Assembly (NCBI GenBank): GCA_018340375.1
Contig: JAFFJZ010000073.1
Coordinates: 124,001-188,000, forward strand
DNA from: Gonatopus flavifemur
Lineage: Eukaryota > Arthropoda > Insecta > Hymenoptera > Dryinidae
Direction of reading: 5' to 3'
DNA: 64,000 nucleotides
Shown here: positions 7,430 to 37,644 of the stretch, piece after piece
How positions within the stretch are numbered: the first letter of the stretch is position 1
How the letters are laid out: every line of letters starts with the position of its first letter
Program-made: the position numbers and the translations under genes
Notes under the pieces: model-generated
The model's database searches: none
What the model was told of the DNA's origin: nothing
What the model saw: the letters and a program-made list of their open reading frames with translations, nothing else

Positions 7430-7681
7430 TATAAAGGGCATGAAATGGTAAAAGGGATGGATGGGAATTATTCGCTTTTGATTTGCTTTAAGAGTATGCT
7501 AGATTAATCTCATTTAGACCCAAGCATAAGGGAATAAAAAATATTCGTGAGAAAAATGAAATACCTGAACATTCGGGCAGAGCGGAATCGTCATAGGGGA
7601 GAGATTTCTTGGGGACTTTGGCATTGTAGATCATACGTGAGGCAAACATCTGGGCATTACTCATCACATGGTGAACAACCA
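7430..7681. other. Interval between two mariners, possible exon
   Basis: On the minus strand an open stretch at about 7565-7690 reads through VHHVMSNAQMFASRM and ends at CAG|GTATTT, a plausible splice donor. The mariner at 7684 is inserted at its upstream end. I do not recognise the product and give this low weight. Confidence 0.2.
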
Positions 7682-7683
7682 TA

Positions 7684-8975
7684 CGAGGGTGGATTGATAA
7701 GTTTCCGGCCTGACCAAGAAAAACAACGTTTCTAAGAATTTTTTTTTTTTATTTCTCAACATAATCTCCTCCAAGGCTGATACATTTCTCATAGCGGTGT
7801 TCTAGTCTAGTAATGCCATCTCTATAGACTGATTCGTCAAGCTCCTCAAAATACCCATTGACAGCTTCGATTACTTCTTCATTGTCCGCAAATCTCTTAC
7901 CGCCAAGCCATTTTTTGAGGTTAGGAAACAGATAATAGTCACTCGGGGCTAGGTCTGGAGAGTAGGGAGGGTGCGGCATTAATTCAAACTTCAGATCGTT
8001 GATTTTAGCCATCGCAACGATTGACGTGTGCGCTGGTGCGTTATCGTGATGAACAAGATTTTTTTCTTCGCCAGATGAGGTCGTTTAATTTTCACTTTGT
8101 GGCTCAAACGTTGCAATAAGTCTGCGTAGTATTGACCAGTGATAGTTTTACCCTTTTCAAGGTAATCAATGTATATAATACCTCTTGCATCCCAAAAAAC
8201 AGTAGCCATAACCTTGTTCGCCGAAAAAATTGTTTTTGCCTTCTTTGGAGTTGGTTCCCCTGGTCCAATCCACTGTTTAGACTGTTCTTTGGTTTCAGGA
8301 GTGTAGTGGTGGACCCAAGTTTCGTCAACGGTTACGAATCGACGCAAAAATTCGCTTGGATTACGCTTATACAACGCCAAATTGGCGGTAGAAATGTTCT
8401 TTCGAATCAATTTTTGGTCCACTGTTAGCAAACGCGGCACCCATCTTGCACAGAGCTTTTCCATATACAAATGTTGGTGCAAAATATTTTGTACACGTTC
8501 ATATGACATCTTACAGGTCTCAGCTATCTCACGAACTTTTAATCTGCGATCTTTCAGCACTATTTGATGGATTTTTCCGATCATATCTGGAGTTGTGACC
8601 TCAATGGGGCGTCCTGAGCGAGGCTCATCAGAGGTGCTCACACGACCCTTTTTAAACTCGGAAACCCACTGCTCAACGGTTGAATATGATGGGGAGGATG
8701 TCCCCAGTGTTGAGTCCATCTCTTCTTTAATTTCCTCCGGCGTTAACCCCTTCAAATAAAAGTATTTGATGACAGCACGATTTTCCAGCTTTTCCATTTT
8801 CACGAAAAACACAGAGGCGTCTTGGTCAGCGTGCTCTCAAAACTAAACTAACATGGCGATCGGACTGAAACTATAGCTACAAGCTATCTAAGGATGGTAC
8901 TATAGAACGCCACCTCAAGGTAGGCCTAGTGGCGCCATCTCTTGGTCAGGCCGGAAACTTATCAATCCACCCTCG
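7684..8975 (-). mobile_element. Full-length mariner element (1292 bp)
   Basis: Two 36 bp TIRs beginning CGAGGGTGGATTGATAAG (7684-7719 and inverted 8940-8975) are a perfect match. They are flanked by TA at 7682-7683 and 8976-8977, the standard mariner target duplication. The single transposase gene lies on the minus strand. Both length and TIRs are those of a complete mariner. Confidence 0.95.
7749..8797 (-). pseudogene. Mariner transposase with one frameshift
   Basis: The protein starts at [17 protein letters not shown] (8797; an upstream in-frame ATG at 8812 is also possible). It has the bipartite helix-turn-helix DNA-binding region over the first ~110 residues, the linker motif WVPRLL, and the catalytic motifs [19 protein letters not shown] and YSPDLAPSDYYLFP (DD34D). 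It ends GGDYVEK at 7749, as full-length mariners do. One base is missing near 8054, just before the second catalytic Asp, so the frame breaks into 8812-7991 and 8012-7749. Apart from this it looks complete. The TVDETW...HHYTPET signature suggests the mauritiana-like group. Confidence 0.9.
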
Positions 8976-17635: not shown

Positions 17636-18956
17636 CGAGGTGTGTTCAAAAAGTAAGGTGACTTTGTATTTTTAAGAAAAAATATTTATTTATTTATCAA
17701 TATTTATGTTGTCCCCTTCAAAGTAATCCCCCTCAGATACAATACACTTATGCCAACGGTTTTTCCAATCCTCAAAGCACTTCTCATAAGCACTTTTTGG
17801 TATAGCCTTGAGCTCTTCCAGCGATGCAGTCTTTATCTCTTCAATCGTTGCAAATCTCCGTCCTTTCATAGGTCTCTTTAGTTTTGGGAACAAGAAAAAG
17901 TCATATGGGGCCAAATCCGGTGAATATGGTGGCTGAGGCATGATTGTGGTGTTGTTTTTGGCCAAAAAATCTCTCACAAACAAAGATGAGTGAGCAGGGG
18001 CATTATCGTGATGCAAAAGCCATGAATTATTTTTCCACAATTCTGGACGTTTTCTTCGTATTGCTTCTCGCAAACGGCGCATAACTTCAAGATAATACTG
18101 TTTATTGACCGTACGACCATATGGTAAGAACTCCTGATGCACCACGCCATGGTAATCGAAGAAAACAGTGAGCAAAACTTTGACATTTGATCGAACTTGG
18201 CGTGCTTTTTGCGGTCTTGGCTCATCTGGGGTCTTCCATTGGGACGATTGGACTTTGGTTTCGACATCATAACCATATACCCATGATTCGTCACCAGTTA
18301 TGACCCTTTTGAGTAAATCTGGGTCGTCGTTGACGTCATTCAACAGTTCTTGAGCGATGCTCATGCGACGGTTCTTTTGGTCAAAATTTAGCAATTTCGG
18401 AACAAACTTCGCTGACACACGTTTCATGCCCAAAACGTTAGAAAAAATTTCATGGCACGAGCCAAGCGATAAACCAACATCCTCAGCAACTTCTCTGATA
18501 GTGATTCGACGATTTTCCAAAACAATTTTCTTCACTGCTTGAACGTTTTCATCAGTTGTTGACGTGCTTGGGCGTCCAGAGCGAGGCTCGTCATTGGCAT
18601 CTTCCCGGCCATCTTGGATGAGTTTGTACCACTTGTGAACATTTTTTCTACTCAGAACAGTTTCACCGTATGCTATGTCGACATTTCAAGTGTTTCGGAG
18701 CACTTTATTTTATTTTTTACACAAAATTTGATACAAATCCTTTGATCCATATTTTTCGATAGCAAGAAATCGCCGAGCACGCAAAACACTTATAACCTTT
18801 ACGCCTCTCACAACCAAACAAAAAATGCTATACACTTGAAACTTGGTACAGATGTTCGGGAAGAGTGTGCCAACATAACAACACAAAAAAATCGATAATC
18901 GAAAGTACGTTGCCCGCGAAATTTGAAAAGTCACCTTACTTTTTGTACACACCTCG
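17636..18956 (-). mobile_element. Full-length mariner-type element (1321 bp), second lineage
   Basis: Inverted termini CGAGGTGTGTTCAAAAAGTA and TACTTTTTGTACACACCTCG bound the element. TA duplications lie at 17634-17635 and 18957-18958. The transposase is on the minus strand. The TIRs and protein are clearly distinct from the mariner at 7684-8975, so this is a separate lineage. Confidence 0.95.
17690..18750 (-). pseudogene. Mariner-type transposase with one N-terminal frameshift
   Basis: The frame starts at ATG 18750 (MDQRICIKFCVKNKIK), shifts by one base near 18680, then continues AYGETVLSRKNVHKWY and [18 protein letters not shown]. The catalytic region is intact: [22 protein letters not shown] and PPYSPDLAPYDFFLFPKLK, a DD34D arrangement. 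It ends at 17690 after an acidic tail. The open part from 18535 down is 281 residues. It resembles the mariner group often mis-annotated as SETMAR-like in insect genomes. Apart from the frameshift in the first helix-turn-helix, the protein is full length. Confidence 0.92.
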
Positions 18957-19984: not shown

Positions 19985-21050
19985 ACTTGATATATATAGG
20001 TTTTTGAGGTCGCTGATTGCGAATCTGGACTCAGATTTGCGAAATTCAAGATGGCGGATTCAAGATGGCGGCAAAAAATTTCAAAATATGGGGGATTTCG
20101 CTGAAACTCACGTGTCGGGGATTTTTCGGGTCGCTGATTACGAATCTGGACTCAGATTTCCAAAATTCAGAATGGCGGATTCAATATGGCGGTGGAAAAT
20201 TTTTAAAATTGCGGAGTTTTGCTGAAACTCACGTGTCGGGGATTTTTCAGGTTGCTGATTACGAATCCGAACGCAGATTTGCAAAATTCGAGATGGCGGT
20301 TTCAAGATGGCGGCGAAAAATTTTCAAAATTGGGGGATTTTGCTGAAATTCACGTGTTGGGGATTTTTCGGATCGCTGATTACGAATCTCAACTCAGATT
20401 CCCGAAATTCAAAATGGCGGATTCAATATGGTGGTGGAAAATTTTAAAAATTACGGAATTCTGCTGAATCTCACGTGTCGGGGATTTTCCGGGTTGCTGA
20501 TTACGAATCCGAACGCAGATTTCCGAAATTCAAAATGGCGGATTCAGGATGGCGGCGGAAAATTTTGAAAATTGGGGGATTTCGCTGAAACTTATTTGTC
20601 GGGGATTCTTCGGGTCGCTGATTACGAATCTGAACTCAGATTTCCAAAATTCGAAATGGCGGATTCAATATGACGGCGGAAAATTAGAAAAATCGTGGAA
20701 TATCGCTGGAACTTGCATTTCAGGAGTTTTTGGGTCGCTGATTACGAATCTAGACGCAGATTTTCAAAATTGCAAATGGAGGACTCGTGATGGCGACGGA
20801 AAATTTGGAAAATTGCGGAATTCCGCCGAAAAATACGTGTCAGGGATTTTTCAGGTCTCCAATTACGAATCTGAACCAGATTTTAAAAATTCAAAATGTC
20901 AGATTCAAGGTGGTGACGGAAAATTTTGAAATCCGTATAACCATGCTGGACTTGATGCACGGAGGGGCTTTCGGTTCGTTGATTGCGAATTCAAACTCAA
21001 ATTTCCAAAATTCAAAGAGCAAATTCGGATGGCGTTAGAAAACTTGGGAA
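19985..21050 (+). repeat. Tandem array of ~122 bp units (about 8 copies)
   Basis: Units repeat GTCGGGGATTTTTCGGGTCG, CTGATTACGAATCTGGACTC and ATTCAAGATGGCGGC at a period of 120-126 bp, degenerating toward 21050. The array lies just inside the left end of the piggyBac-like element, so it is probably a subterminal region of that element. Long open frames across it are repeat artefacts. Confidence 0.85.
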
Positions 21051-21614: not shown

Positions 21615-23275
21615 TCATGCATGGTAATTTCGAAAACAATTTCCATCATGTTTTATGCACAATGGCACATTGCAAGTACTGCAGGTATATGAAGTCCTGC
21701 AAGGTTGACTCTTTGTACTACAAAAAGCACAACGTCTCGGAACGCTTACACATACGGGCATATGACATGGTTGAGATCGTCTTGTTTCAAAAGATACTGT
21801 AGGTCTTCTGACTACGTTTGATGGAGATGTTTTTGACATTTTCTTCCCGTAGGTGTAGGTAAACGATGGCTTGCCAATTGATCTACTGAAAATAACCTGA
21901 ATTTCTTTGATGCCATTGGATGTGCTGGATTTCTGGTATTATAAATAATCAATGCATTCATAATGGCTACCTTCAAAAAATGCCAAAATATGCGGTGCCA
22001 CCATTTTTTTTATTTCCTGTTAATTTTGTAAGTTGATATTAGGTGATCAGATCCATCAACATATCCCATATTTTCATGATAGCCAGAGCACATAACTGGG
22101 CGAGTTACTTGTTTCGGAGAACCATCTTTTTGTGTACGATTTGTCACAGTAGCCTCACAAGGGTCATGATAGTTGGATAAAAAGAAAACAGCTTTTTTAT
22201 CCATCCACTTGACCCAGCTGTTTCCAGCACCACAAGTACGGTATTCATACTGCCCATGCGCCATTTTTTTTATCAGGAATACTGCTTTTTGGTAAACCCT
22301 TTCTGTTGGAACGAACAGTTCCACAAGCAAACACTTTATCTCTTTTCAAATCTATCATAAGATCAAGACCGGTAAAAAAATTATCGAAAAATACATGATG
22401 ATTTTTTCCTACTAAGTAGTTACGCGTCAAATCTTTCACTACTCGGGCACCCAATTGCTTTTCAGCACTTTCAGCTTCACCTGTGTATACCTGAAACTCG
22501 CACACGTATCGCGATGCATCTGCGCGCGTCCAAACTTTGTATCCACGTTTTAGGGCTTGTTCGGCATGTACTGCTTCAAACTGCTACGGCCTTTGAACTT
22601 GATCATGGATTCATCAATAGATTGGTTTTTGCTGGGTTTCCAACAATTCTTGAAAGTTTCGAATAATTTATCTAAGAATGGTCTCAGCTTATACAATTTA
22701 TCATAATTTTTATCTCCTTTTCTCGGTTCTTGACTGTTATCAGCCATGTGTAAATGACTCAGAAGAAATCCAAACCTATTAACCGTCATCAATTTGCATA
22801 TAAATGGATCAATCAATTTTGGATCTGTCGACCAATAATCGCGGTAAGAGGGGGATTTTTTCACGCCCATCATTATATTTATAGCGAAAAACACTAGTAA
22901 TTCCTCTTTGGTTATTGAATCAGCTTTAGTTTTTTTCTGTCTCAAGTACAGGTTTGTTTGTTCAACAATTAAATCTAAAAGTTCATGGGGGAACAGACAT
23001 AAAAATATGTCTAAAGGTGTGGTACCATCATCTGTAATATTTGGACCGAAAGTTTCAGTATATGGGGAATCATCTTGGGTTTTTCTTTTTTCCGCCCACA
23101 TAAAATCATTATCATTGAATTCTATGTTATCATCATCAAAACTTTCTGAGTCAGGATAATCCCCAGAAAGATTTCTTTCGCCATCACAGTCAGTATAATC
23201 ATTCTCAATATCATCATCATCACACAACCCATCGATAGATTCAGCATCACCGGGAATATCAGTTATTTCATCCAT
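21615..23275 (-). pseudogene. piggyBac-type transposase, degenerate
   Basis: The frame starts MDEITDIPGDAESIDG (23275) with an acidic N-terminus. The DDE_Tnp_1_7 core follows: YRDYWSTDP, then SIDESMIKFKGRSSLKQYMP. Next are FFDNFFTGLDLMIDL (22505-22245 frame) and GYVDGSDHLISTYKINRK. A C-terminal Cys-rich domain closes it, with CAFC and CSTCNVPLC (21839-21615). Lesions: a missing base at about 22552 after MPNKP, another frame change near 22262, and a TAA at 22010 after KINRK. The order and spacing match full-length piggyBac transposases. The Cys-rich tail is the type that binds terminal repeats. Confidence 0.88.
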
Positions 23276-23744
23276 ATTTCGAAGTTATATGAAGTGATAT
23301 GTCTTGTGCACCAAATATAAGTGATAGATGAACTTCAGTCGTTTCCACGACTGATGGAGAAGAATGCCTTTTCACACAAAAATTTGCGGAAGACAGTTTT
23401 TCACAATCCAGTTAGCCTGCCACACAAACGCGATCTTTAACACGGATAAGTTGTCTTTACTCAATATTAAATAACAATAGACATCTCAGTCAATACCAAT
23501 ATGTACTACAATAATTAATATTTCGATTATAGATACAAAAAACTAGTTGCGAAGTAGCGATGGAAACCCTAAGTCTATCATGCGTAAAAAATCAATTTTG
23601 AGTGGTAAAGCTTCAAATAAATATTATGATGGTATTTTGCACAAAAATAATAATATTTTGGAATATTTGTATGGATTATGAAATCTGCACATATTATTAT
23701 TTTTGCGTGAGTAATTTACGTCTCAGATAGCACAAGAGTTCTCA
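23276..23744. other. 5' flank of piggyBac-type transposase
   Basis: AT-rich sequence with no reading frame of note. It presumably contained the promoter of the transposase gene, but no motif can be fixed. Confidence 0.4.
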
Positions 23745-25450
23745 AAATTTTTTCAATCGCCCGTTTGCCCTCACCAACCCCTTGATGGGGGTTGAATTTG
23801 AAAAATTCGGAAAAATTCAAATGTACGTGTATTTCTCTTTTTTTGGGACGCTCAAACCAAAAATGATAGAGGAAAAGAATTCCAATCCCTCTCTCACCTG
23901 CTAGCACTCTCCTACCACCCCCTGATGGGGGTTGAATTTTAAATTCTCATAAAAAATTCAAATGTATGTGGATTTCTATGTTTTTTGGGATGCTGAACCC
24001 AAAAATGATGAGGAAAAAGGATTCCAACCCCTCTCTTACCCGCTAGCACCCTCCTACCACCCCCTGATCGGAGTTGAATTTTAAACTTTCGTAAAAAATT
24101 CCAATGTATGTGGATTTCCATGTTTTTTGGGATGCTCAAACCGAAAATGATAACAAAATAGAAATTCAACCCCTCTTTTGCCCGCCAGCTCCCTCCCACC
24201 ACCCCCTGATGGGGGCTGAATTTGAAACTCACGTCAAAAATTTGAATGTATATGTATTTCCATGTTTTCTGGGACGTTTGAATAAGAAATGATAACAAAT
24301 AACGAATTTCACCGCTTTCTTACCCGCTAAGAGTAGAACCAAATCATGAATGCATCTGATATTTCTATTTCATGAAGTATTGACGTTTACAACATAGGAT
24401 ACTGTTCAACGTGTTGAATCAACAAGTGATTGACTTTGGATCGCCGGAATTTTGAGTATTGGGCCCATGAAAGCTTTGGTTCTTCTGTTTTATCCTGAAT
24501 CGTTAGCGTAATTCGGTGAGAACTGACTTTCATGTGGATTCTACTAGGTTCTTTTGAATGATTGTACAGGAGTGTGAGGATGTAATCGAGTCAGTGGATA
24601 TTGTTGATTGCAGTCGTTTATGGTCTCAGCATTTCAAAGAACATAGAAATACACATACATCTCAATTTTGTGAGAGAATTTCAAATTCAACCCTTTTCAA
24701 GGGGGTAGTAAGGGGGTACTAGCGGGTAACAGAGGAGTTTAATTTGTTATTGGTTATCATTTTCGATTTAAGCGTCCCAAAAAACATGGAAATACACATA
24801 GATTTGAATTTTTTACGTGAGTTTCAAATTCAACTCTCGTCCGGGGGTGGTAAGAGGGTGCTAGCGGGTAAAAGAGGGGTTGAATTTGTTATTTGTTATC
24901 ATTTCTTATTCAAACATCCTAGAAAACATGGCAATACATATGCATTCAAATTTTTTTACGTGAGTTTCAAACTCAGCCCCCATCAGGAGGTGGTAGGAGG
25001 GTGCTAGCTGGTGAGAGAGGATGAAATTCATTTTTTCTTATCATTTTCGGTTTCAGCATCCCAAAAAACATGCAAATCTACTTGGATTTGAATTTCTTAC
25101 GAAAGTTTAAAATTCAACCCCCATCAGGAGGTGTAGCAGGGTGCTAGCGGGCAAGAGAGGGGTGGAATTTCTTAAGTGTTATCATTTTCGGTTTGAGCAT
25201 CCCAAAAAACATAAAAATCCACATACATTTGAATTTTTTACGAAAATTTAAACTTCAACCCCCATCAGGGGGTGGTAGGTGGGTGCTAGCGGATAAGAGA
25301 GAGGTTGGAATTCTTTCTCCTCATCATTTTCGGGTTCAGCGTCCCAGAGAACATAGGAATACACGTACATTTGAATTTTTCCGAATTTTTCAAATTCAAC
25401 CCCCATCAGGGGGTTGGTGAGGGCAAACGGGCGATTGAAAAAATTTTTCA
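23745..25450. mobile_element. Foldback-like element with tandem-repeat arms
   Basis: The left arm (23745-24310) has four ~140 bp units with CCCCCTGATGGGGGTTGAAT and TTTTTGGGACGCTCAAACC. The right arm (about 24635-25450) has six inverted units with AACCCCCATCAGGGGGTGG. The centre (24310-24635) is unique. Each unit also contains the small inverted repeat CCCCATCAGGGG. This resembles foldback elements, where long inverted arms are made of tandem repeats. All open frames in it are artefacts of the arms. Confidence 0.8.
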
Positions 25451-26004
25451 TGGTCATATTTGGTTTCAGCGACCCCAAAAACGTAGGGATAGTGGGGTCT
25501 ACCCTCTGTTTCATGACAATTTTTTTTGTGTGTGTGAAGGAATCGCGACATATTCTTTGTTTAACAATTTTCTTTTCAATAATTTCTTTTCTTTCAACAT
25601 ATATATATATATGAATTTGTATATTATATCGAATACCCTCCTTATTTGATGAATTTATCTTGAAAATATGATTCATTCTATTACCTGCACTATGTGCATC
25701 GAATGTATACAAAGGAATGATTCGGACCGACAATGCGGCGTCTACAGAGACAAATACTTGTCTCTTCCACCCCAATAAAATGAATCATCGGTATCAAGCA
25801 AATGTGTCCTTACTTGACCGTATTGAAGGTACCGTTAAAGGGAATAATTATGTCTAGACATTATAGCTCTATGCTTGGACTTCCTTATATACATATATTA
25901 TATTTGAATTTGAATTTCTCTTAAACTCTTTTGCAAACTCAAGGTCCGTTAGATTTCTATTCCAAATTTTTACAACCCTTTACCTCCATATTGGAAAAAA
26001 TTAG

Positions 26005-26045
26005 TATATAAGGACCCATTCTTTAAGGATTTAGCAGTTCAGTTC
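26005..26045 (+). promoter_or_regulatory. LTR promoter (TATA box and likely initiator)
   Basis: TATATAAG at 26005-26012 is followed about 30 bp later by GCAGTTCAGTTC, a plausible initiator. The same arrangement occurs in the 3' LTR (36616-36623). A TATAAAAA with a downstream TCAGTC lies in the related solo LTR on the minus strand (52701-52694). Confidence 0.6.
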
Positions 26046-26229
26046 TTTAACTCAACTCGACAAGAACTCTTTAGTTCTTACAGAGCTCCTTAGCTCTACT
26101 AGAATTCTTTAATTCTTTCAGAGCTCTTTAGCTCTCTCGAGTTTTTTTTACTTGAAATTCCAAGTCGTTACTTGGTATCATTTAGAGAAACAAAAATACT
26201 CTTTTGAGAGTAACACATACAACAGTACA

Positions 26230-26804
26230 AGTAAATAACATTTAAATTTCTTAACGTTTGTCCCAATTCTCAGTTTCATATTATCATTGAATTCTATTTT
26301 TCAGTGAAAAACATTAAAGAATTAGAAGAAAAACTCTTTTTCACGAGGAAAAGAATTCAGGAAAGAATTCGAAAGATTGCACAGGGGAAAATCCATTCCA
26401 AATCAATTAGATATAAACGATTTAAGCTTAATCAAGACCAGGATTTAGAGAAGGAACAAAAACTTCTCATAGAGATAAATAATTTGAAATTTAAAAGAAA
26501 AGAAAATGAGTGGAGAAGTAACCTGCGAATAGTCAATAACATTAATGATCAAAAATTAGAATGGAATCAGGATACCATTGTAGAATGCATGATAAATAAT
26601 CAATTTAACAAAAATCAAGACAATTCTTATCCTTCACCCAAAAGGTGCATCTTATGTGTTGACCTTCGAATAGCATTTTATAAATGTGAAAATTGTAAAG
26701 ACTTCTTATATTATTATTCAACTTTAACACATAATGAACTATCAGAAATTAATTTAACTAGTAAAGAGAAAAAGAAAATAATTCATTTTAAAAATTTATT
26801 CTAA
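26230..26804 (+). CDS. LTR-encoded basic coiled-coil/zinc-motif protein
   Basis: The ORF inside the LTR encodes about 166 residues. It opens MKNIKELEEKLFFTRKRI, is rich in Lys/Glu with heptad-like hydrophobics over the first ~70 residues (likely coiled coil), and ends with a CILC...CENC pair around residues 117-133, a probable zinc site. No ATG opens the frame in genomic sequence. A donor AA|GTAAAT (26231) and acceptor TTTTCAG (26304) define a 74 bp intron. Joining them places A before TG, creating ATG-AAA-AAC at the junction (inference). The copy in the 3' LTR is identical at the protein level. Related ORFs occur in the solo LTR at 51.2-52.0 kb. Function is unknown. Position upstream of gag and a size like retroviral accessory proteins suggest a regulatory role, but nothing proves it. 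Confidence 0.65.
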
Positions 26805-26891
26805 AAGACAAATTTGTAGAGTATGAGAGAATGAGTATGGGTTATGTAAAATTTATGTTTTCAATGTATGTATTCATTTGCCTTCTAGAAT

Positions 26892-26897
26892 AATAAA
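26892..26897 (+). terminator. LTR polyadenylation signal
   Basis: AATAAA lies 87 bp past the stop of the LTR ORF, with the same signal at 37502-37507 in the 3' LTR. It would terminate both the LTR-encoded transcript and the full genomic RNA. Confidence 0.6.
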
Positions 26898-27046
26898 TTG
26901 TAATATAAAATTTGATCCATTTTTGTTCAATCCCGAAATGAATATTTCCTCTTTCTCCTTTTGAACAAGGGTGTAACAAGTTACATTGTTATATCCTTTC
27001 TTGTCGTTACGTTTAAGGCAACTTGAACGTGACATAAGAAAAATTT

Positions 27047-27067: not shown

Positions 27068-27164
27068 GCTCATAAGGGGGGAAGTTGGACGTTTCATTGT
27101 TGGGAGGAACCGAAGATTCGAATAATATCTTCAAGATTTTTTTTTCAATGTCTTTATATCTCAT

Positions 27165-27745
27165 TCACAGTTTTTTCCATCATTCCAAGAATAAAAAGAC
27201 GTAATGAATGAAGAAATTGAATAATAAATCTATGATAATCGAATAATATCGAAATTCAAAGGAAAATAAGATGAAAAATGAATAGATAGATGAATGAATG
27301 AAGTCAAATGAAATGAAATGAAGAAAAAAATAAAGTTCAAGGAAGATAAATAAACAAGAAAATAGATCAATGAAACAATGAATAAATGAATGAATAAATC
27401 AATGAGGAAGATCAATGAGGAAGATCAATAATGAATAAACAAGATAAATGAACAAACAAATGAATAAAACGAATCAAAATAAATGCATTGAAAAAATGAA
27501 TAAATGAGTCAAAAATAATGAATAAACGAATGAATGAATGAATAAATAAATGAGTAAATTGAATGGAAATATTGCATAAACCGGTTGAAAGAATAAAATT
27601 ATGGATGAAATAAAGAATTTTGAGAATAAAATAAAGACTTTTTGAGAATAAAATAAAGAATTTCAAGAATAAAGTGAAGAATTTTGACTCTCGAGAATAA
27701 GAGAAACAAATTTTGAGAAGGAAATTGTAATGAATCCATGCAATC
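27165..27745 (+). repeat. Purine-rich AATGAATAA leader repeats
   Basis: The untranslated leader between the primer site and gag is made of short imperfect repeats of GAATGAATAAATGA type on the plus strand. This is strongly biased to A and G and nearly free of C. The minus-strand open frame across it (27412-28167) is an artefact. Confidence 0.65.
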
Positions 27746-27748
27746 TCT

Positions 27749-29068
27749 ATGTCTGGATATACTTTACGAAAATACACTAAAGATCTGGATAAACAAACAA
27801 AAGACATTGTTTTGGGTGAAGGACTCACTTCTAATAAAAAAAAATCATCAAAAAGTAACTCCACTCTTTCTCTTCCTTTAGGAGATAAAACGAATGAAGT
27901 GAAACAAACGACAGATTGTATACCTTCTTCCTCAGGAATACAGCAGGAAAAATTAGGTTTCGAAGACAGTGTTTTAAATCCAATTTTTACTTCTACCCCT
28001 ATCAAATCCAAAGAAAACAAAGATATTTCACATGACGTTTCAATTATAGAAAATACCCTCGATGATATAGATATAACAATTATATTTACTGAAGAAATAG
28101 GGACAAAAACTAGTAAAATGACGCAACAATTTATACGAATTAAGGATGCGTTGGGACTCATACCCATTTATTCTGGAAATAATGATGAATGTAGTTTTCA
28201 GGAATTTTCATCAGCCTGTATAGATGCAAGGCAACTGGTAGATCCGGAATCAGAGGCACTTTTTGCTACCGCTATCAAATCACGACTTCGAAGTGGTGCT
28301 TTGCAGATTGTACGAAATGTCAATCCTGCAACTGTAGCAGCATTATTGAAAACGCTCAAAACAATATATTCACCTTGCGATAACGATTTAGAAATACTAA
28401 GTGAACTATCCCATCAATATCAAAAACAAAACGAATCCGTAGCAACATATTTTAATAGAATTAGAATGATGGGTTTTCGACTAATAGAAGCATATAAAAC
28501 TGAACATGATGATGCAATAGCAGATGACAAAAAACAGGAATTTGAAGAAATTTGTTGTAAGGTATTTGTTCGCGGGTTAAAATCAGAGATCAGTAATTTA
28601 ATGAAAGAGAAGAAAGATTTGAACAAAGCGGGTCCAGAGGCTATTGAATATGAAAAAGAAGCAATAATAAAACAAAATTTAAGATCAGCTGTAAATTCCA
28701 ATGAAAAATGTGGTTTATGTAGTAAAACCGGACATAAATCGATAGAATGTCCCATAATTAATTCACCCCCTGTTGAAATGGGAAAATGCCAAATTTGTGA
28801 TCTATTTGATCATACCGCAAAAAATTGTCCCACTCAAAAAAACAATCAAATTACCTGTCAAATTTGTGGTCGAAGAGGCCATATTGCTTCAAATTGCAGA
28901 AATAATGTCAGTTATGCAAATTTCTGTAAAAATTGTAATCGATCGGGTCATAAAACTCAAGATTGTAGACAAATGATTAATCGTAGTCGTGAAATTTGTC
29001 AAATTTGCAAAAAATATGGCCATATTGCAGATGAATGTCGGTATTATAGTCCAATTAAAATTGCATAA
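27749..29068 (+). CDS. gag: Gag, capsid plus five zinc knuckles
   Basis: The 439-residue frame starts MSGYTLRKYTKDLDKQ. It contains a Ty3-type capsid region (about residues 125-310, opening near LGLIPIYSGNN). Five CX2CX4HX4C knuckles follow from about residue 325 (CGLCSKTGHKSIEC, CQICDLFDHTAKNC, CQICGRRGHIASNC, CKNCNRSGHKTQDC, CQICKKYGHIADEC). It packages genomic RNA into particles. The frame ends with TAA, and the next codon, ATG 29069, opens five more knuckles in the same frame. The TAA may be a mutation, a recoding site or a reinitiation point. Confidence 0.9.
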   Translation: MSGYTLRKYTKDLDKQTKDIVLGEGLTSNKKKSSKSNSTLSLPLGDKTNEVKQTTDCIPSSSGIQQEKLGFEDSVLNPIFTSTPIKSKENKDISHDVSIIENTLDDIDITIIFTEEIGTKTSKMTQQFIRIKDALGLIPIYSGNNDECSFQEFSSACIDARQLVDPESEALFATAIKSRLRSGALQIVRNVNPATVAALLKTLKTIYSPCDNDLEILSELSHQYQKQNESVATYFNRIRMMGFRLIEAYKTEHDDAIADDKKQEFEEICCKVFVRGLKSEISNLMKEKKDLNKAGPEAIEYEKEAIIKQNLRSAVNSNEKCGLCSKTGHKSIECPIINSPPVEMGKCQICDLFDHTAKNCPTQKNNQITCQICGRRGHIASNCRNNVSYANFCKNCNRSGHKTQDCRQMINRSREICQICKKYGHIADECRYYSPIKIA

Positions 29069-29509
29069 ATGATAAACAAATGTCAAGTATGTGGTATGAC
29101 AAACCATAGAACAGAAAATTGCAGAAATAATCAAGCTTGTAGCAAATGTGGAAAATTGGGACATTTAGCAATGAGTTGTAGGATACCGATTAAATGCCAT
29201 TCTTGTGGTTTATTGGGGCATTATGCAACTCATTGTCCACAAAAATCCAATAACTTCAAATCATCAAATTCTAGAATGTGTCATTTCTGCAATAAAATTG
29301 GACATACGGTTGAAAATTGCAATGAATTGAGATATAAATTCAAAAACGAAGAATTTTGTACATATTGCAGAAATCAAGGACATGTTTCTGCAAATTGTAA
29401 GAATAGAATGGTGTCAAATCAGGGAAATGCTCAGGGAAACTCCCCAAGCCTCCCTTTGAGGGAGGCTGGAACTACACGAACCCAAGTTCAAACATTTCAA
29501 GAAGAATAG
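29069..29509 (+). CDS. Gag extension, five further zinc knuckles
   Basis: This 146-residue frame directly continues the gag frame after its TAA. It has five CX2CX4HX4C motifs (CQVCGMTNHRTENC, CSKCGKLGHLAMSC, CHSCGLLGHYATHC, CHFCNKIGHTVENC, CTYCRNQGHVSANC). Together with gag this makes ten knuckles, where one to three is usual for Gypsy Gag. It overlaps the start of the pol frame, which is open from at least 29500 in the -1 frame, so Pol is probably made by frameshifting here. Confidence 0.8.
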   Translation: MINKCQVCGMTNHRTENCRNNQACSKCGKLGHLAMSCRIPIKCHSCGLLGHYATHCPQKSNNFKSSNSRMCHFCNKIGHTVENCNELRYKFKNEEFCTYCRNQGHVSANCKNRMVSNQGNAQGNSPSLPLREAGTTRTQVQTFQEE

Positions 29510-29511
29510 AA

Positions 29512-31953
29512 ACGCATGTCACTGACGTTAAATTGACCTTACAACGAATATCACCAGTGGTAAAAATCAATGTTTTCAAGCCTACCTTGTTTTTGATTGA
29601 TTCAGGAGCAGGGGTATGTTTAATAAAAGAGAGTTTTATCAAAGATCAAGTAGAAATTGATAGTAATGAAATTTTGCAATTGTCAGGAATATCGTCAGGA
29701 ATAGTTACAACTTTAGGTAGAATAGAGATTAATCTAATGGGATATCTCACAATCTTTCACGTGGTATCTGATGATTTTCCAATACGTCAGGATGGAATCA
29801 TTGGAATTACATTCTTATCAGGTAATAAAGCTAGTATCAATTGGCAGTTGAATTGTTTGGATGTTGATGATATTCGCGTTCCTTTTCATCATGAGAAAAT
29901 ATATACGATACCTCCTCGAACAAGACAGATAATACATCTCAATCTCGTTGAAACAGAGTTAACAGAAGGATTTATACCCAGATTAAAAGTTAATGATGGA
30001 ATATATATAGGGAATGCAATAGTGAAAAATAATAATGGGAAAGTCTATTTGCCGATTGTAAATAGTACAGAAGAAGAAATACAAGTTTCTGTGCCTAAGG
30101 TTAAAATATATGAAATAGAACAGATAGGGAATTCAAAAAATTCAAAGATTAAAAAATCAAATCGAAGAAAAGGTTCAAAATCATGTAGGAATAAAAATAT
30201 TCTCACCATCCAAGACAAAGAAAGGTTCCAAAAAATAATAGAACTCTTGAGATTGGAACATTTGAATGATGAAGAGAGAAATGAAGTAGAATATTTAGTA
30301 AAACAAAGTTTAAAACAATTCCATTTACCTGAAGATGTATTAGAGTATACACATGTATTGGAACATGAAATACCTACTGTAAATGATAGGCCAATACATA
30401 CAAAACAGTATAGATTTCCACCAACATTGAAAGAAGAAATTGCTCAACAAGTAGAAGATTTACTGAATAATGGAATTGTACAGCCATCACATTCTCCATA
30501 CAACACGCCAATCTGGATAGTACCAAAGAAACCAGATTCTCAGGGTAATAAAAGATGGCGTCTTGTACTGGATTTTCGTGCATTAAATGAAAAAACTATA
30601 GGTAATGCATATCCTCTTCCGAATATTATAGAAATACTAGATCAATTAGGTGAAGCTAAATATTTTAGTATATTTGATCTCGCATCAGGTTTTCATCAAA
30701 TTAGAATGTGTGATAAGGATCGTCACAAAACCGCTTTTTCCACACCGAATGGACATTATGAATTTACAAGAATGCCCTTTGGTTTAAAAAATGCTCCTGC
30801 TACTTTCCAACATTTGATGGATATTGTACTAAGTGGATTACAGGGAGTTGAATTGTTTGTATATTTAGACGATATCGTAATCTATGCAAAAACTTTATCA
30901 GAACATCGTAAAAAATATTTGAATTTGATAGATCGTTTACGTAAAGCCAACCTCTGTTTACAACCAGATAAATGTGAGTTTTTGCGTCGAGAAGTTTCGT
31001 ATCTTGGACATAAAATTACTCAAGAGGGTTTGAAACCTGATCCAAAAAAAATAGATGCTGTAAAGAATTTTCCCAGACCAAAAAACGTAAAAAATATAAA
31101 GCAATTTTTAGGCCTTGCTGGATATTATCGCCGATTTATCCATAATTTTTCAAAAATTTCAAAACCCCTAACTAAATTATTAGAAAAAGATGCCACATTC
31201 GTATGGCAAAAAGAGCAGGAAGAAGCATTTGAAATTCTCAAACAAAAATTATGTGAAGATCCTATATTAATATATCCTGATTTTTCAAAACCATTCATGT
31301 TGACAACTGATGCAAGTGGATATGCTATAGCAGGAATTTTGAGTCAGGGTCCAGTGGGGAAAGATAAACCTATTTCATATACTTCCAGATTATTAAATAA
31401 AACAGAAAGAAATTATAGTACCTATGAGAAAGAAGCCCTGGCAATATTATATAGTGTTTCATATTTCAGACCATATTTATACGGAAGGAAATTCACAATA
31501 GTTACGGATCACCGTCCGTTGGTTTGGATGCGAACGGCTAAGGACCCAACTTCCAGATTAACGAGATGGCGTCTAAAGCTAGAAGAATTCGATTTTGACA
31601 TTATTTATAAAGCTGGAAAATCTAATGTCAACGCGGATGCACTATCTCGAAACCCTATTGTCGAAGATGATGAGATTTTAGAGAATACTAATGAAAATAA
31701 GAATAAGGAGGAATTTGAACAAATTGTAGAGGATATTAAAACTCTGTATCCTGTTGATACAAAGGTTAGAAGGTCTTCAAGGCAACCTAAATTAACATTA
31801 GAAGGTCAGCAATATAGAGAATCTATACAGAAAAAACAAAACAAGCGAAAGAATAATAAGAAAAATATAAAATCACAAAATCAATATAAAGATCTAATGG
31901 GAGATTCAACTGAAAGTTCGAATGATGACATTGGACATTTAGAACCGAATTAG
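29512..31953 (+). CDS. pol: Pol: protease, reverse transcriptase, RNase H
   Basis: No ATG is expected; the frame is -1 relative to gag. The protease active site is LFLIDSGAGVCL (about residue 20-32 of the frame). Reverse transcriptase shows WRLVLDFRALNEKT, FDLASGFHQI, MPFGLKNAPATFQ and the catalytic VYLDDIVIY. RNase H shows LTTDASGYAIAGILS, YEKEALAILYS and TDHRPLVW, followed by NVNADALSR. After RNase H a basic, Gln/Asn-rich tail (RRSSRQPKL, KKQNKRKNNKK) runs to a stop at 31953 and separates the enzyme from integrase in a different frame. Confidence 0.93.
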   Translation, partial: THVTDVKLTLQRISPVVKINVFKPTLFLIDSGAGVCLIKESFIKDQVEIDSNEILQLSGISSGIVTTLGRIEINLMGYLTIFHVVSDDFPIRQDGIIGITFLSGNKASINWQLNCLDVDDIRVPFHHEKIYTIPPRTRQIIHLNLVETELTEGFIPRLKVNDGIYIGNAIVKNNNGKVYLPIVNSTEEEIQVSVPKVKIYEIEQIGNSKNSKIKKSNRRKGSKSCRNKNILTIQDKERFQKIIELLRLEHLNDEERNEVEYLVKQSLKQFHLPEDVLEYTHVLEHEIPTVNDRPIHTKQYRFPPTLKEEIAQQVEDLLNNGIVQPSHSPYNTPIWIVPKKPDSQGNKRWRLVLDFRALNEKTIGNAYPLPNIIEILDQLGEAKYFSIFDLASGFHQIRMCDKDRHKTAFSTPNGHYEFTRMPFGLKNAPATFQHLMDIVLSGLQGVELFVYLDDIVIYAKTLSEHRKKYLNLIDRLRKANLCLQPDKCEFLRREVSYLGHKITQEGLKPDPKKIDAVKNFPRPKNVKNIKQFLGLAGYYRRFIHNFSKISKPLTKLLEKDATFVWQKEQEEAFEILKQKLCEDPILIYPDFSKPFMLTTDASGYAIAGILSQGPVGKDKPISYTSRLLNKTERNYSTYEKEALAILYSVSYFRPYLYGRKFTIVTDHRPLVWMRTAKDPTSRLTRWRLKLEEFDFDIIYKAGKSNVNADALSRNPIVEDDEILENTNENKNKEEFEQIVEDIKTLYPVDTKVRRSSRQPKLTLEGQQYRESIQKKQNKRKNNKKNIKSQNQYKDLMGDSTESSNDDIGHLEPN

Positions 31954-32000: not shown

Positions 32001-32306
32001 ATGAGACCCAGACAATTACAAAATTATGGGATAGATGAAACAGATTCATCTGATGATCAAAATTCAATAAATTCCAATATTGAGTTTTCAGATAGGGAAA
32101 GTTCAATTGTGGATGAACAAAGGAAATCCTATATGAATCATAGAAACAATATTTCTGATAATTTAAATGACTCAGATCAAGATTCAGAAAATGAAGATTA
32201 TATAGAATATCTGATATATGGGAGGAATATATATGAAACTCGAGATCAATTGTACATGAAGAAAGATAATTATGTATTTTTATTGAATGAAAAGGAGAAC
32301 TTTTAG
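32001..32306 (+). CDS. Acidic pol linker frame
   Basis: This 101-residue frame lies between RNase H and integrase and is strongly acidic and Ser/Asn-rich (DETDSSDDQNS, DNLNDSDQDSENEDY). It is offset from both neighbouring pol frames, so it is probably part of an interdomain linker cut by indels and not an independent gene. No domain is recognised. Confidence 0.45.
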   Translation: MRPRQLQNYGIDETDSSDDQNSINSNIEFSDRESSIVDEQRKSYMNHRNNISDNLNDSDQDSENEDYIEYLIYGRNIYETRDQLYMKKDNYVFLLNEKENF

Positions 32307-32332
32307 ATGAGAAGATTAATAATTTTTCAAGA

Positions 32333-33711
32333 TTGTATAATATTAAACATTTTCGAGGTATGGAACCAGGGTCAGTCAAAGAATCAAGAATCAAAGGAAA
32401 ATGGTATATCGGAATATGCGTACAAGCAAATAGACAATCATCTACATCATATCAGACACTGAATAGTATACGAACAGGATTAAATAATTTACACAAATTT
32501 GTTGATCAGGAAGATATACAAAGTTTCAGTATTTCAAAAATTGAAGAAATTAATGGTCTACCTTGGCAAAATGTTGCAGATGAAATAAATAAGAGATTCA
32601 AAAATACCAGTATCAAAATTACCATTTGTTTAAACATTGTTGAACAACCGCCAATTTCCGAGAGATATTCATTAATACGAGAGGCACATTGTTCAGCAAT
32701 GGGCGGTCATAAAGGAGTTTCAAAAACGTATTGTAGATTGAGAGCGAATTACCATTGGGAGAATATGAGGAAAGAGATACAAAATTTCATTGAATCTTGT
32801 TTGCAATGTAAATTAAAAAATTAGTTAGAGTAAAAAATAAACAGCCAATGATGATAACCGACACTCCTGGTACTGCCTTTGAGAAGTTAGCTATGGACAT
32901 TGTAGGACCATTTCCGATTACAAGAAATAATAGTAGATACATTCTGACTATGCAATGTTTGTTAACCAAATATTGCATAGCTGTACCAATTCCCGATGCA
33001 ACTGCTATAACTATAGCCGATCAATTCATAAAACGGTTTATATGTGTCTTCGGAGCACCGAAGGTAATATTAACTGATCAAGGTACTAATTTTTTGTCCA
33101 AACTAATGAAAATCATAGCAAAAAAATTTAATATACAACAGGTCAAAACAACTGCATTCCATCCACAAAGCAATGGCTCATTAGAAAGAACGCATATCGT
33201 TCTGGTAGAGTATTTAAGACAATATACATCTAAAGATTCGGAATGGGATGAATGGGTTGAGTTGGCAACTTTTTCGTATAATACAAGTACCCATGAAAGT
33301 ACACAAAGAACACCATTTGAATTAGTTTTTGGAAAAATAGCTAATACCATTTCAAGTCAATCTCTACATAGTTTTGAACAATTAACGACATATGATGATT
33401 ATTTCATTCGATTAATGGCGAGATTAGATAATTTGCAAGAAGAAGCAAGAGAAAATTTAAAGCTAGCAAAATATAAATCAAAACAGAATTATGATAGGAA
33501 AATTAATCCTTTCACTATAGAAGTAGGGAAATATGTATTCCTAAGGAAGGGTATGAAAACAGGGAAATTGGGGAATGTTAATGAAGGACCATACAGAGTT
33601 TTAGAAGTTTATGATGATAAGAATGTGAAACTGAAAATTGGGAGAAAGGAAAAAATAATATCAATGGATAGATTAATACCCACAAAAATTAATGAAAGTG
33701 ATTTTGAGTAG
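32333..33711 (+). pseudogene. Integrase, split by a frameshift
   Basis: The N-terminal part (32333-32824) carries the HHCC zinc motif: EAHCSAMGGHKG ... CLQCK. The catalytic core (32848-33711) has MDIVGPF, LTDQGTNF and NGSLERTH, the D,D-35-E residues, with LATFSYNTSTHESTQRTPFE after it and a C-terminal domain typical of Gypsy integrases. The break between the two is a one-base change at an A run around 32815-32822. A further frame change separates the upstream linker. The enzyme inserts the cDNA and fits the 4 bp target duplication. Confidence 0.85.
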
Positions 33712-34077
33712 AGTTTTGTTTTTCAATTGAATATCATTTTCTTTTAGGGAATTAGACAAAGAATTATTGCCATGGATAAATCCCTTGATAAACATAACAA
33801 TTTTATAATTCCCAAAAGAAATTGAAAGGAGAAAACACAATTACATGTGTCATATTTATCAAATAGAAAATTCACAAAATAAAACTCAAAAAGTAGTGAG
33901 AATGAGATTTTATCCTGATTGTAGTTTAGAAATTCGAAAAATTGTAGATTTAGTATGAATTTGTAATTATTTGTCCGAAGTGTGGAATTAAACTATATAG
34001 AATTAAATTAGGATAATAATTTTGTTTAATCATTTTTGTATATATAGATTTCGATTATTAAATTCGCAGGGATATCA
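33712..34077 (+). other. Pol-env intergenic region
   Basis: No frame of note. A small CDS-like stretch is not supported. It probably contains the acceptor of a spliced env mRNA, as in other env-bearing Gypsy elements, but I cannot fix it. Confidence 0.4.
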
Positions 34078-36073
34078 TTGAAAATGGATAAGAAAATTGG
34101 ATGGCTTGGTTTATTTTTTCTTCTACAAATACATCTATGCAGCAGTTTGGTGGGTTATGACTGCGGAGCACCTAACACCAATATTACAACAATATCTTTG
34201 AAGTCTATTGGCTCATGTGAAATCCCAGAGCCGCGAGTAAACAAAACAACAGTTTATATTCAATTGCTCCAACTGGTTAACTTCGGAACGGCGCACGTAC
34301 AAACTTGCAGAATTGAAATTTTCCGGGAAGTCAATTATTGTGGGATGCATTCCCACATATCAGCTGTAAATGGAGGATTGCTGAATATATTCATGAAATA
34401 TCTAGGGATCAATGTAAAGATATTCATGAGACCGGAAGAACTAGGATTGGGTCTACAACGATAGATGGCATACGAAAAAACAGCACTACCACTTCTACAA
34501 TAACTTTAGCAGGATCTATTTCTAATGATGGCACCTGCAAAGAAACATCATATTCGGATCCTTATGGGAGCTGGGATAACGTGGTAGTTCAAGGAAGGGT
34601 TAAAATTGCAATTATGGATTATGAAGCGAAAACACACTTGGATGACAATCAAATAATTTTACAAACCGGGACGCGGTGTGTACTCAACTCTGGAAGATGC
34701 GTAGATTCAACAGGCAGTTATGTTTTTTGGGAATCTACACCCAAAGATACTTGCAAATTCAATAGATATATGGTGCTGTATGAGGGTTATGCGGACAGAA
34801 TGATGGATCTATCCGAAAATTTTGCCGAAACTGTATACTCTGTCATAACACAGGACATAGCATTCGCCTTAACAACAGAATATTCACATATGTTGTGTGG
34901 GTATCAGTTGATTAAAACACAACATCCTAAGCTGTTTATTCTAGAAGGACGGAAGGAAAGTTTTTTCAACAGACCCAAACCTTTGAATGTGCAAGAATTG
35001 GATTTGTTCACATACATTAATAGTAAATTCGTTTATGTAGAAAAACATTTTAAAACTCAAATGAATAATCTGTATAAAGATGTTATGTACCAACGATGCC
35101 GTTTAGAACGTGAACTTTTATTAAATGCTCAAGTTCTAGCACTCCTGAAGCCAGAAGAGTTTGCATATAATTATAAAAAGGGTCCAGGATTTACAGCAAT
35201 AGTCACAGGAGAAGTCGTGAGGTTGATCAAATGCATAGCTGTTGAGGTGACTATTGCTCGAGCTGAACTATGTTACCAAGAACTCCCAGTAAAAGAGGAA
35301 ATGCCCTACAGTTTTTAATGCCCAAAACTCATATATTGAAGGATAGAGGATTTGAAGTGCCATGCAGTAAGCTCATACCAACTATGTTCGAGCTTGAAGG
35401 GAATTGGTATAAAATGTTACCATTTCCAGCAGAGGATAAGGAACCACATATAATGACCCCTTTGGCACAACCTACTTGGAAATATCAAAGTCCTGGAAAT
35501 TTGGCTAAACAGGGAATTTACACTGAAGAAGATTTAGGAAAACTTAGAGACTATATAATGTCTCCGTTTGAGCAACCCGCCATCGTTAATCAAATTGTAC
35601 GTGCAGCTACAGGACAACATGTTAACCTGCGAGGATTATCGATCAATAATTTGCTGGATCAAAATGCCCTGGAGTTGATAGCGAAATCTACTTGGGATCG
35701 AATCTGCAACGGATTTAGCAATTTTGGAGTATTCAGCGCTGGGATAATGGGAGTGTTCATTATGATGAAACTACTCAAAATCATCATTGACACAATCATA
35801 CATATGATTGCTTTGCATTCAATATATGGTTGGTCCATTTATTTGGTCGGAGCAATACTTGATTCCGTAACCAATTTTTTATTGCATATGAGCCATAACA
35901 GACAACTGAGGAATATGGAAAGAACTTCAAATGAAGACATCGAAATCATCGAAGAAAATGTGGGAAACAAGACAACAATTTATCCAGGAGAAGAATTGAA
36001 GAACGTCATAATACACGATAATAAACCAAGTCCACCCAACAATAAGGAGACGAGACCATATGGTCTAGATTAA
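34078..36073 (+). pseudogene. Env-like glycoprotein (chuvirus-glycoprotein-like), two frameshifts
   Basis: The first frame (34078-34464) opens with a signal peptide (MDKKIGWLGLFFLLQIHLCS) and continues with YDCGAP and a YCGMHSH motif. The second frame (34338-35318) holds the bulk of the ectodomain with many Cys and Asn-X-Ser/Thr sites. The third (35270-36073) ends with a membrane segment (VFSAGIMGVFIMMKL, then a second hydrophobic stretch) and a charged tail. The pattern resembles glycoproteins shared by chuviruses and some arthropod retroelements (judged from memory), not the fusion-type Env of classic errantiviruses. Frames change near 34380 and near 35290, so no complete product can be made as read. 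Confidence 0.6.
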
Positions 36074-36141: not shown

Positions 36142-37644
36142 TGTGAAGGAATCGCGACATATTCTTTGTTTAACAATTTTCTTTTCAATAATTTCTTTTC
36201 TTTCAACATATATATATATATATGAATTTGTATATTATATCGAATACCCTCCTTATTTGATGAATTTATCTTGAAAATATGATTCATTCTATTACCTGCA
36301 CTATGTGCATCGAATGTATACAAAGGAATGATTCGGACCGACAATGCGGCGTCTACAGAGACAAATACTTGTCTCTTCCACCCCAATAAAATGAATCATC
36401 GGTATCAAGCAAATGTGTCCTTACTTGACCGTATTGAAGGTACCGTTGAAGGGAATAATTATGTCTAGACATTATAGCTCTATGCTTGGACTTCCTTATA
36501 TACATATATTATATTCGAATTTGAATTTCTCTTAAACTCTTTTGCAAACTCAAGGTCCGTTAGATTTCTATTCCAAATTTTTACAACCCTTTACCTCCAT
36601 ATTGGAAAAAATTAGTATATAAGGACCCATTCTTTAAGGATTTAGCAGTTCAGTTCTTTAACTCAACTCGACAAGAACTCTTTAGTTCTTACAGAGCTCC
36701 TTAGCTCTACTAGAATTCTTGAATTCTTTCAGAGCTCTTTAGCTCTCTCGAGTTTTTTTACTTGAAATTCCAAGTCGTTACTTGGTATCATTTAGAGAAA
36801 CAAAAATACTCTTTTGAGAGTAACACATACAACAGTACAAGTAAATAACATTTAAATTTCTTAACGTTTGTCCCAATTCTCAGTTTCATATTATCATTGA
36901 ATTCTATTTTTCAGTGAAAAACATTAAAGAATTAGAAGAAAAACTCTTTTTCACGAGGAAAAGAATTCAGGAAAGAATTCGAAAGATTGCACAGGGGAAA
37001 ATCCATTCCAAATCAATTAGATATAAACGATTTAAGCTTAATCAAGACCAGGATTTAGAGAAGGAACAAAAACTTCTCATAGAGATAAATAATTTGAAAT
37101 TTAAAAGAAAAGAAAATGAGTGGAGAAGTAACCTGCGAATAGTCAATAACATTAATGATCAAAAATTAGAATGGAATCAGGATACCATTGTAGAATGCAT
37201 GATAAATAATCAATTTAACAAAAATCAAGACAATTCTTATCCTTCACCCAAAAGGTGCATCTTATGTGTTGACCTTCGAATAGCATTTTATAAATGTGAA
37301 AATTGTAAAGACTTCTTATATTATTATTCAACTTTAACACATAATGAACTATCAGAAATTAATTTAACTAGTAAAGAGAAAAAGAAAATAATTCATTTTA
37401 AAAATTTATTCTAAAAGACAAATTTGTAGAGTATGAGAGAATGAGTATGGGTTATGTAAAATTTATGTTTTCAATGTATGTATTCATTTGCCTTCTAGAA
37501 TAATAAATTGTAATATAAAATTTGATCCATTTTTGTTCAATCCCGAAATGAATATTTCCTCTTTCTCCTTTTGAACAAGGGTGTAACAAGTTACATTGTT
37601 ATATCCTTTCTTGTCGTTACGTTTAAGGCAACTTGAACGTGACA
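36142..37644 (+). repeat. 3' LTR
   Basis: This is the partner of 25533-27034 and is nearly identical. Differences seen by eye are one extra AT in the (AT)n run, one fewer T in a T run and three substitutions. It includes its own TATA box, predicted intron, ORF and AATAAA. Confidence 0.93.
36840..37414 (+). CDS. LTR-encoded protein, copy in 3' LTR
   Basis: This encodes the same protein as 26230-26804, with the same predicted splice (donor at 36841, acceptor ending 36914) and the CILC...CENC motif. In this LTR the promoter, intron, ORF and AATAAA form a unit that could be expressed without the rest of the element. Confidence 0.65.

Follow-up and report, generated by a model that had tools for sequence, protein, structure and literature searches.

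A candidate intron-containing gene with a splice-made start codon in the long terminal repeats of a Ty3/mdg4-type element of Gonatopus flavifemur

Introduction

Can a long terminal repeat (LTR) be a gene in its own right? LTRs are usually viewed as regulatory, non-coding sequences, and solo LTRs as gene-free. The question is raised by a retroelement of the dryinid wasp Gonatopus flavifemur that lies in a stretch of 64,000 nucleotides of contig JAFFJZ010000073.1 (assembly GCA_018340375.1, positions 124,001 to 188,000, forward strand), hereafter the window, in whose own numbering positions are given. An earlier note on this DNA had described in each LTR of the element a TATA box, a 74-bp GT-AG intron, a 166-codon open reading frame (ORF) and AATAAA in that order, and had proposed that the start codon is created by splicing. 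Genes of this kind would be missed by ATG-based ORF annotation or by LTR masking.

Results

Anatomy of the candidate LTR gene

The described order is exact to the base in both LTRs of the window (Table 1), and judged by its letters the window LTR looks like a complete intron-containing gene. The two LTRs are 99.6% identical, have TG...CA ends and are bordered by TGTG on both sides of the element. The coding region lies inside the LTR in both copies, comprises 166 codons counting the Met, and specifies an identical protein from each. In genomic DNA there is no ATG at the start of the ORF; the frame is open for 189 codons and its first in-frame ATG comes only at codon 96. Exon 1 ends in ...ACAA and the predicted join reads A/TG AAA AAC (a slash marks a splice junction here and below), at 26230/26305 in the 5' LTR and 36840/36915 in the 3' LTR, so that the proposed splice-made start codon is borne out as a prediction. 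The CX2C...CX2C pair that the note had seen in the product is also present (Table 1).

Table 1. Features of the element and of its LTR gene in the window
Feature	Position	Strand	Remarks
5' LTR, starts TGTGAAGG, ends GTGACA	25533..27034	+	1502 bp; TGTG target-site duplication just outside
TATA box TATATAA	26005..26011	+	read directly
Exon 1, without ATG; last base = A of predicted start codon	26037..26230	+	start assumed about 26 bp past TATA box
GT-AG intron, 74 bp, 5' LTR	26231..26304	+	GT at 26231, AG to 26304
Exon 2, coding part: TG of predicted start codon, 165 further codons, TAA	26305..26804	+	
CX2C-X9-CX2C in exon 2 product	C114 C117 C127 C130		numbering without Met
Stop codon TAA	26802..26804	+	
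AATAAA polyadenylation signal	26892..26897	+	about 88 bp past stop codon
gag-like frame with CCHC knuckles, stop-terminated	27734..29068	+	knuckles go on in-frame through 29069-29509
Reverse transcriptase and RNase H	29407..31953	+	plus protease match below Pfam cut-off (E 0.034)
Integrase, H2C2 zinc-binding domain and core	32291..33711	+	split over two frames
Monjiviricetes-type fusion glycoprotein (envelope)	34048..36073	+	three overlapping frames, broken in window copy
Likely envelope acceptor CAG/GGATATC; envelope ATG	about 34069; about 34084	+	
3' LTR carrying identical gene	36142..37644	+	1503 bp
3' LTR gene: exon 1 end; intron; coding part	36840; 36841-36914; 36915-37414	+	

The element and its surroundings

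Frames of the internal region were searched individually against Pfam. The domains follow the order gag, protease-reverse transcriptase (RT)-RNase H-integrase and then envelope before the 3' LTR, which is preceded by the polypurine tract CAAAAACGGGGGAGA, and the pol matches are Ty3-like. The only family to which the envelope frames match is Monjiviricetes_fusion (E down to 1.1e-116); a baculovirus F-type envelope was not among their matches. By these domain matches the window element is of the Ty3/mdg4 type (Metaviridae) and carries a Monjiviricetes (chuvirus-type) fusion glycoprotein. The window copy is not intact, having an in-frame stop in gag and split envelope frames, yet its LTR gene is intact. 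Between the 5' LTR and gag, the leader (27150-27720) is rich in ATGA-type microrepeats and holds many ATGs, which suggests that gag would hardly be reachable by simple scanning; the split codon therefore cannot be explained entirely by a need for a gag leader free of ATGs.

The Monjiviricetes envelope is abundant in the genome, with at least 68 matches (scored among 375 candidates), many of them open for more than 650 codons. Directly 5' of the element (23744-25447) lie inverted repeats whose arms reach 286 nt and are 77-96% complementary, and a tandem array with a 121-bp unit occupies 20001-20876 and may continue leftwards beyond the part searched. Remnants of other elements at 6698-8836, 17690-18685, 22550-23284 and 61539-63413 match Transposase_1 frames, which we take to be mariner-type, a DDE_Tnp_1_7 fragment, presumably piggyBac-type, and THAP9/TNP-like frames. 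The assembly also contains 24 COX1 matches (C150, C88, C351, C345 and others), four of them near full length; some lie deep inside long contigs, and this position suggests nuclear mitochondrial copies.

Close copies, chance and selection

The ORF could be read as a functionless frame, open by chance or decaying, in a young repeat, and the closest copies would suit this reading, being nearly identical, as would the many copies with stops. A DNA search of the 636-Mb genome returned 54 matches, many of which are short, with identities of 66-100%. Near-identical copies with an open ORF are both window LTRs, both LTRs of C394 and one of C142; in the C382 LTRs and the second C142 LTR the ORF match is partial or contains a stop. 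C142 (locus L038) and C382 (L040) have the same right flank at the insertion, so that C142 is probably an allelic copy of C382. Many related copies are interrupted by stops, and several distant copies retain the frame.

We aligned 26 chosen LTR rows representing about 20 insertions; the interrupted C219, C219b and C133 were dropped and other fragmentary loci left out, and the rows are not independent, C142 and C382 sharing flanks and C392a and C114 being nearly alike. The A/GT donor is retained in 23 of the 26 rows and the AG/TG acceptor in 24, with introns of 67-92 bp. The donor exceptions are C111 (AT for GT), C111b, whose ORF is nevertheless open, and C302; the acceptor exceptions, C392c and C323d, both have several stops. 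Exon 1 is free of ATG in 25 of the 26 rows (two are truncated in exon 1), C229a having one, compared with 2.7 ATGs expected by composition in the window's exon 1. Counted in 11 of these rows against the window as reference, gaps per copy number 0-2 in the ORF versus 10-23 in U3 and 3-11 in the region after the ORF. Two of the six ORF gaps, both in C349, are multiples of three; the others are in C392a, C302 and, twice, C111b, where the frame is still open.

The longest open run on the plus strand of the LTR is that of 189 codons, and no run of this length occurred in 20,000 first-order Markov sequences with the composition of the LTR (longest 170). Substitution was analysed by pairwise codon maximum likelihood in ten pairs, all from the window lineage with none inside the distant families F1-F6 described below; the pairs share sequences and hence are not independent. 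For the three pairs with unsaturated dS, omega was 0.285 (window-C281), 0.353 (window-C323a) and 0.275 (C281-C323a), with 2dlnL against omega=1 of 12.0, 11.1 and 17.2, respectively. Five deeper pairs also reject omega=1 (2dlnL 60-76), and their omega of 0.045-0.11 comes with a saturated dS of 2-10 and is not relied on. The two recent pairs, C229b-C323c (0.54) and C111b-C302 (0.94), are compatible with omega=1, as a functionless frame would have it and as is expected for copies drifting after insertion. At the level of sequence, these ratios show purifying selection on the predicted LTR protein in the window's lineage.

Among the outcomes that the earlier note had itself named as speaking against a gene are open frames no longer than chance in related LTRs and neutral substitution. 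Neither of these was found, since long frames recur and eight of the ten pairs reject omega=1. Selection between the older lineages, the simulations, the few gaps in the ORF as against the many beside it, and the recurrence of the ORF down to 22% identity together make a functionless frame, in our judgement, exceedingly improbable.

Distant families with the same design

Protein searches of the genome with the window, F2 and F4 ORFs gave 148, 152 and 150 matches, respectively, in each case the best ~150 of 483-609 candidates with the weakest matches near E 0.001. After merging, for which 141 of 148, 146 of 152 and 142 of 150 rows were used and the omitted rows were mostly neighbouring fragments, there are at least 359 distinct ORF loci in the genome. 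Among the matches listed, same-strand ORF pairs 5-26 kb apart, which are candidate LTR pairs, number 43 versus 11 on opposite strands. Likewise among the matches listed, the ORF flanks 14 of the 68 scored envelope matches on both sides in the expected order and five on one side, and 49 have no flanking ORF; the opposite-strand control gave 0 downstream and 3 upstream. Distant-family ORFs are 22-36% identical to the window protein. Four pairs fetched from the distant families are 98.4-99.8% alike over the parts read, indicative of young families. The F3 LTR measures about 2.9 kb (3') and 3.2 kb (5') and the F2 LTR at least 3.76 kb, and tandem repeats inside the LTR parts of F1, F2 and F3 (L072-L077) show up as offset self-matches when the two LTRs are compared. 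Going by these sequences, the LTR-gene design recurs in other element families of the same genome and is wider than the earlier note knew.

The predicted split start codon across families

Of 25 loci scanned, six yielded no row. An open frame with the Cys pattern is present in the other 19; an in-frame AG/TG accompanies it in 16 and is absent from three (L049, L050 and L077), whose frames are cut by stops or shifts. Ten of the 25 were checked closely (window, C281, C229, C349, C111b, F1, F2, F3, F4 and F6). In all ten, down to 22% identity with the window protein, in-frame ATGs are absent between the upstream stop and the split ATG and from the 94 codons that follow it, and an in-frame AG/TG stands where the conserved protein begins, with 13-20 pyrimidines in the preceding 20 nucleotides.

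Donors were ranked by a score that ignores the -1 base; A occupies this position in F2 (aaa/GTAAGT), F3 (cca/GTAAGT), F4 (caa/GTAAGT), F6 (caa/GTAAAT), C349 (gaa/GTAAAT) and the window lineage (caa/GTAAAT). The donor with A at -1 scores highest of all sites in the stretch scanned for the window, C281, C229, F4 and F6, and highest over the LTR for F2 and F3; in C349 it outscores every other site downstream of the TATA box, and a better-scoring one with T at -1 lies further upstream. A donor giving A/TG was not identified in F1, whose best upstream donor has T at -1, or in C111b and C302, where the aligned donor is lost. Predicted introns range from 74 to 948 bp across families. The window, F2 and F3 have the TATA motif TATATAAGGA(C/G)C in common, and F2 and F3 further have an exon 1 without ATG and an AATAAA downstream of the ORF; their introns contain three (F2, 800 bp) and 15 (F3, 948 bp) ATGs, all of which the predicted splice would remove. 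No TATA box was found in the stretch of F4 that was read, and exon 1 of F6 has one short upstream ATG frame. The predicted design of a splice-created start codon is thus that of the resolved families.

These same sites could be read in another way, with the LTR donor serving the envelope mRNA and the LTR ORF being translated from a non-AUG codon (GTG) of unspliced RNA. A plausible acceptor, CAG/GGATATC, does lie shortly before the envelope ATG, and the near-universal lack of ATG in exon 1 of the 26 rows is what an envelope leader would need. Such translation would leave unexplained why all ten ORFs have an in-frame, pyrimidine-rich AG/TG at their N terminus, and why the exon ends in A at the resolved donors, given that splice donors usually have G as the last exon base, and we consider it very unlikely.

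Solo LTRs

A matching 4-bp duplication on either side identifies four single LTRs as solo LTRs: C281 (TGTC), C361 (ATTG), C1 at 25.69 Mb (ATTC) and C1 at 18.22 Mb (ATAA). The C281 copy retains the TATA box, donor, acceptor and an uninterrupted ORF, with GATAAA in place of AATAAA. One stop each interrupts the ORF of C361 and of C1 at 25.69 Mb, and C1 at 18.22 Mb matches residues 31-165 only, with a gap right past the acceptor. As to the expectation that a solo LTR remains a working gene, solo LTRs exist and that of C281 has an open ORF, but none of the four examined combines an open ORF with every signal.

The GATAAA of C281, the sole solo LTR with an open ORF, also accords with the idea that the protein comes from full-length transcripts only, by a splice that joins the donor of the 5' LTR to the acceptor of the 3' LTR, solo LTRs being silent. 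Retroviral accessory mRNAs often arise by such long-range splicing, which here would yield an identical mRNA. In each window LTR, however, a TATA box, an intron and AATAAA of its own follow one another, and most rows retain both sites of the short intron, for which long-range splicing alone would have no use; exclusive long-range expression is in our view unlikely.

The predicted protein

In a 12-member alignment of the LTR proteins P109, C114, C127, C130, Y137 and E154 are invariant, and removal of C323a leaves an 11-member set in which none of the four Cys varies. Two of the 11 ORFs read, C323a and C323c, have lost one Cys, the latter lying outside both alignments. The proteins are basic (pI 9.0-10.0). 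A structure model (pLDDT 76, pTM 0.41) predicts helices at residues 3-25 and 36-77, with confidence to about residue 65, and a C-terminal part forming a small helical Cys4 end (pLDDT 71-83). As to the probable coiled coil of the earlier note, long helices are indeed predicted and nothing beyond such helices supports it.

The window ORF has no sequence relative at E 0.001 among 5.8 billion predicted proteins (79 candidates), a collection whose coverage of eukaryotes is uncertain, nor does the 12-member alignment in the same proteins at the same threshold (3582 candidates). No Pfam family is matched by more than one of the 12 members (best E 0.0025), and fold searches with the moderate model reached at best E 1.4 (PDB) and 0.29 (viral). 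One PDB entry, 8fje 'E8', scored E 0.00023 in total with no stretch passing alone and was set aside. N-myristoylation requires Gly after Met, a position that K, D, E, F, T or P occupies in the 12 members.

Discussion

We consider it likely, from the arrangement and conservation of these signals, that the LTRs carry an R-region accessory gene, extending from TATA box to AATAAA and common to a set of Ty3/mdg4-type elements, whose product is made from spliced RNA only. Transcription would start a short way past the TATA box, excision of the intron would create the first AUG of the message, and the RNA would end at the LTR's own AATAAA, resulting in a short mRNA. Its source could be a 5' LTR with early polyadenylation, a 3' LTR or a solo LTR, and the same mRNA would result from a long-range splice joining the donor in the 5' LTR to the acceptor in the 3' LTR. 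Unspliced genomic RNA would contain the ORF at both ends and lack its AUG, leaving the ORF silent, and the missing AUG would thereby make the protein dependent on spliced RNA. The ATG-free exon 1 might in addition serve as leader of the envelope mRNA, with CAG/GGATATC as the likely acceptor.

The weakest step concerns the product, which its basic charge, predicted long helices and Cys4 motif suggest is probably a nucleic-acid-binding regulator, acting on the element's own expression or RNA fate; sequence, profile and fold searches provided no support for a regulator role. It is a distinct possibility, somewhat short of an even chance, that the gene is real and its protein not a self-regulator but a counter-defence or particle-associated factor, a role that the marked divergence of the families (22-36% identical to the window) would fit too, as would the basic charge and absence of relatives. 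The position in R beside the promoter and on both transcript ends would seem likelier for an early regulator. That every LTR, solo copies included, is an autonomous gene for a trans-acting regulator, gated by its splice-made start codon, we find rather doubtful, a reading weakened by the GATAAA of C281. If it were true, hundreds of LTR genes could act together to determine how active the family as a whole is in the genome. With this locus one can test whether a split start codon acts as a splicing gate and whether the remains of recombination can go on producing an element protein.

Comparison with known systems

The nearest precedent for coding inside an LTR is the superantigen Sag of MMTV, which lies in U3 and whose mRNA starts outside U3. 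Pfam includes a Sag model, and no Sag family is among the Pfam matches of the 12 members at E up to 1. The available text of a recent study calls Sag an LTR-encoded accessory protein and a type II membrane protein, and reports just two of the two-LTR endogenous copies without a Sag ORF (PMC11998498). As in MMTV, the coding region of the window element lies inside the LTR in both copies; unlike Sag, it sits between the TATA box and AATAAA and has its own predicted intron. Our literature search on LTR-encoded ORFs, which left most subscription journals outside, returned MMTV and seemingly unrelated work, and recognised no complete intron-containing LTR gene. Bdelloid LTR elements, in the portion of the paper available, have additional third ORFs, typically from spliced messages (PMC5408684), and PMC4016481, as far as its accessible part goes, concerns non-LTR ORFs.

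Within the Metaviridae, sORF1 of the Drosophila MDG1 group is located near the 5' end, upstream of gag between LTR and gag; it encodes a predicted helix-turn-helix, has a short transcript ending right past it, and belongs to elements whose full-length transcripts had no detected splicing, according to the parts of the source at hand (PMC11952523). The window's ORF is likewise a short accessory ORF of a Metaviridae-type element, a likeness drawn from description only, and differs in lying inside the LTR with a predicted intron. It also differs from MDG1 sORF2, a FAST-like fusogen, in lacking the N-myristoylation motif (12 members).

With regard to the envelope, Anakin of mosquitoes is a Pao-type retrotransposon with a Jingchuvirales-type glycoprotein, and the same source, in the part available, states no clear Gypsy-type capture of such a glycoprotein (PMC10084718). 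The window element carries a chuvirus-type glycoprotein as Anakin does, and unlike the Pao-type Anakin has a pol that matches Ty3-like sequences; an LTR gene is not mentioned for Anakin in the available text of that paper.

The split start codon itself has a parallel in the springer subclade of insect endogenous retroviruses, where the main envelope exon is reported, in the available excerpt, to be spliced from an AU dinucleotide (PMC12992720), which on our own reading completes an AUG start codon. Given this precedent, making a start codon by splicing is in itself no novelty. In springer the split is AU/G and belongs to an envelope of baculovirus F-type, whereas in the window the predicted split is A/UG and belongs to an ORF inside the LTR, the envelope having its own ATG.
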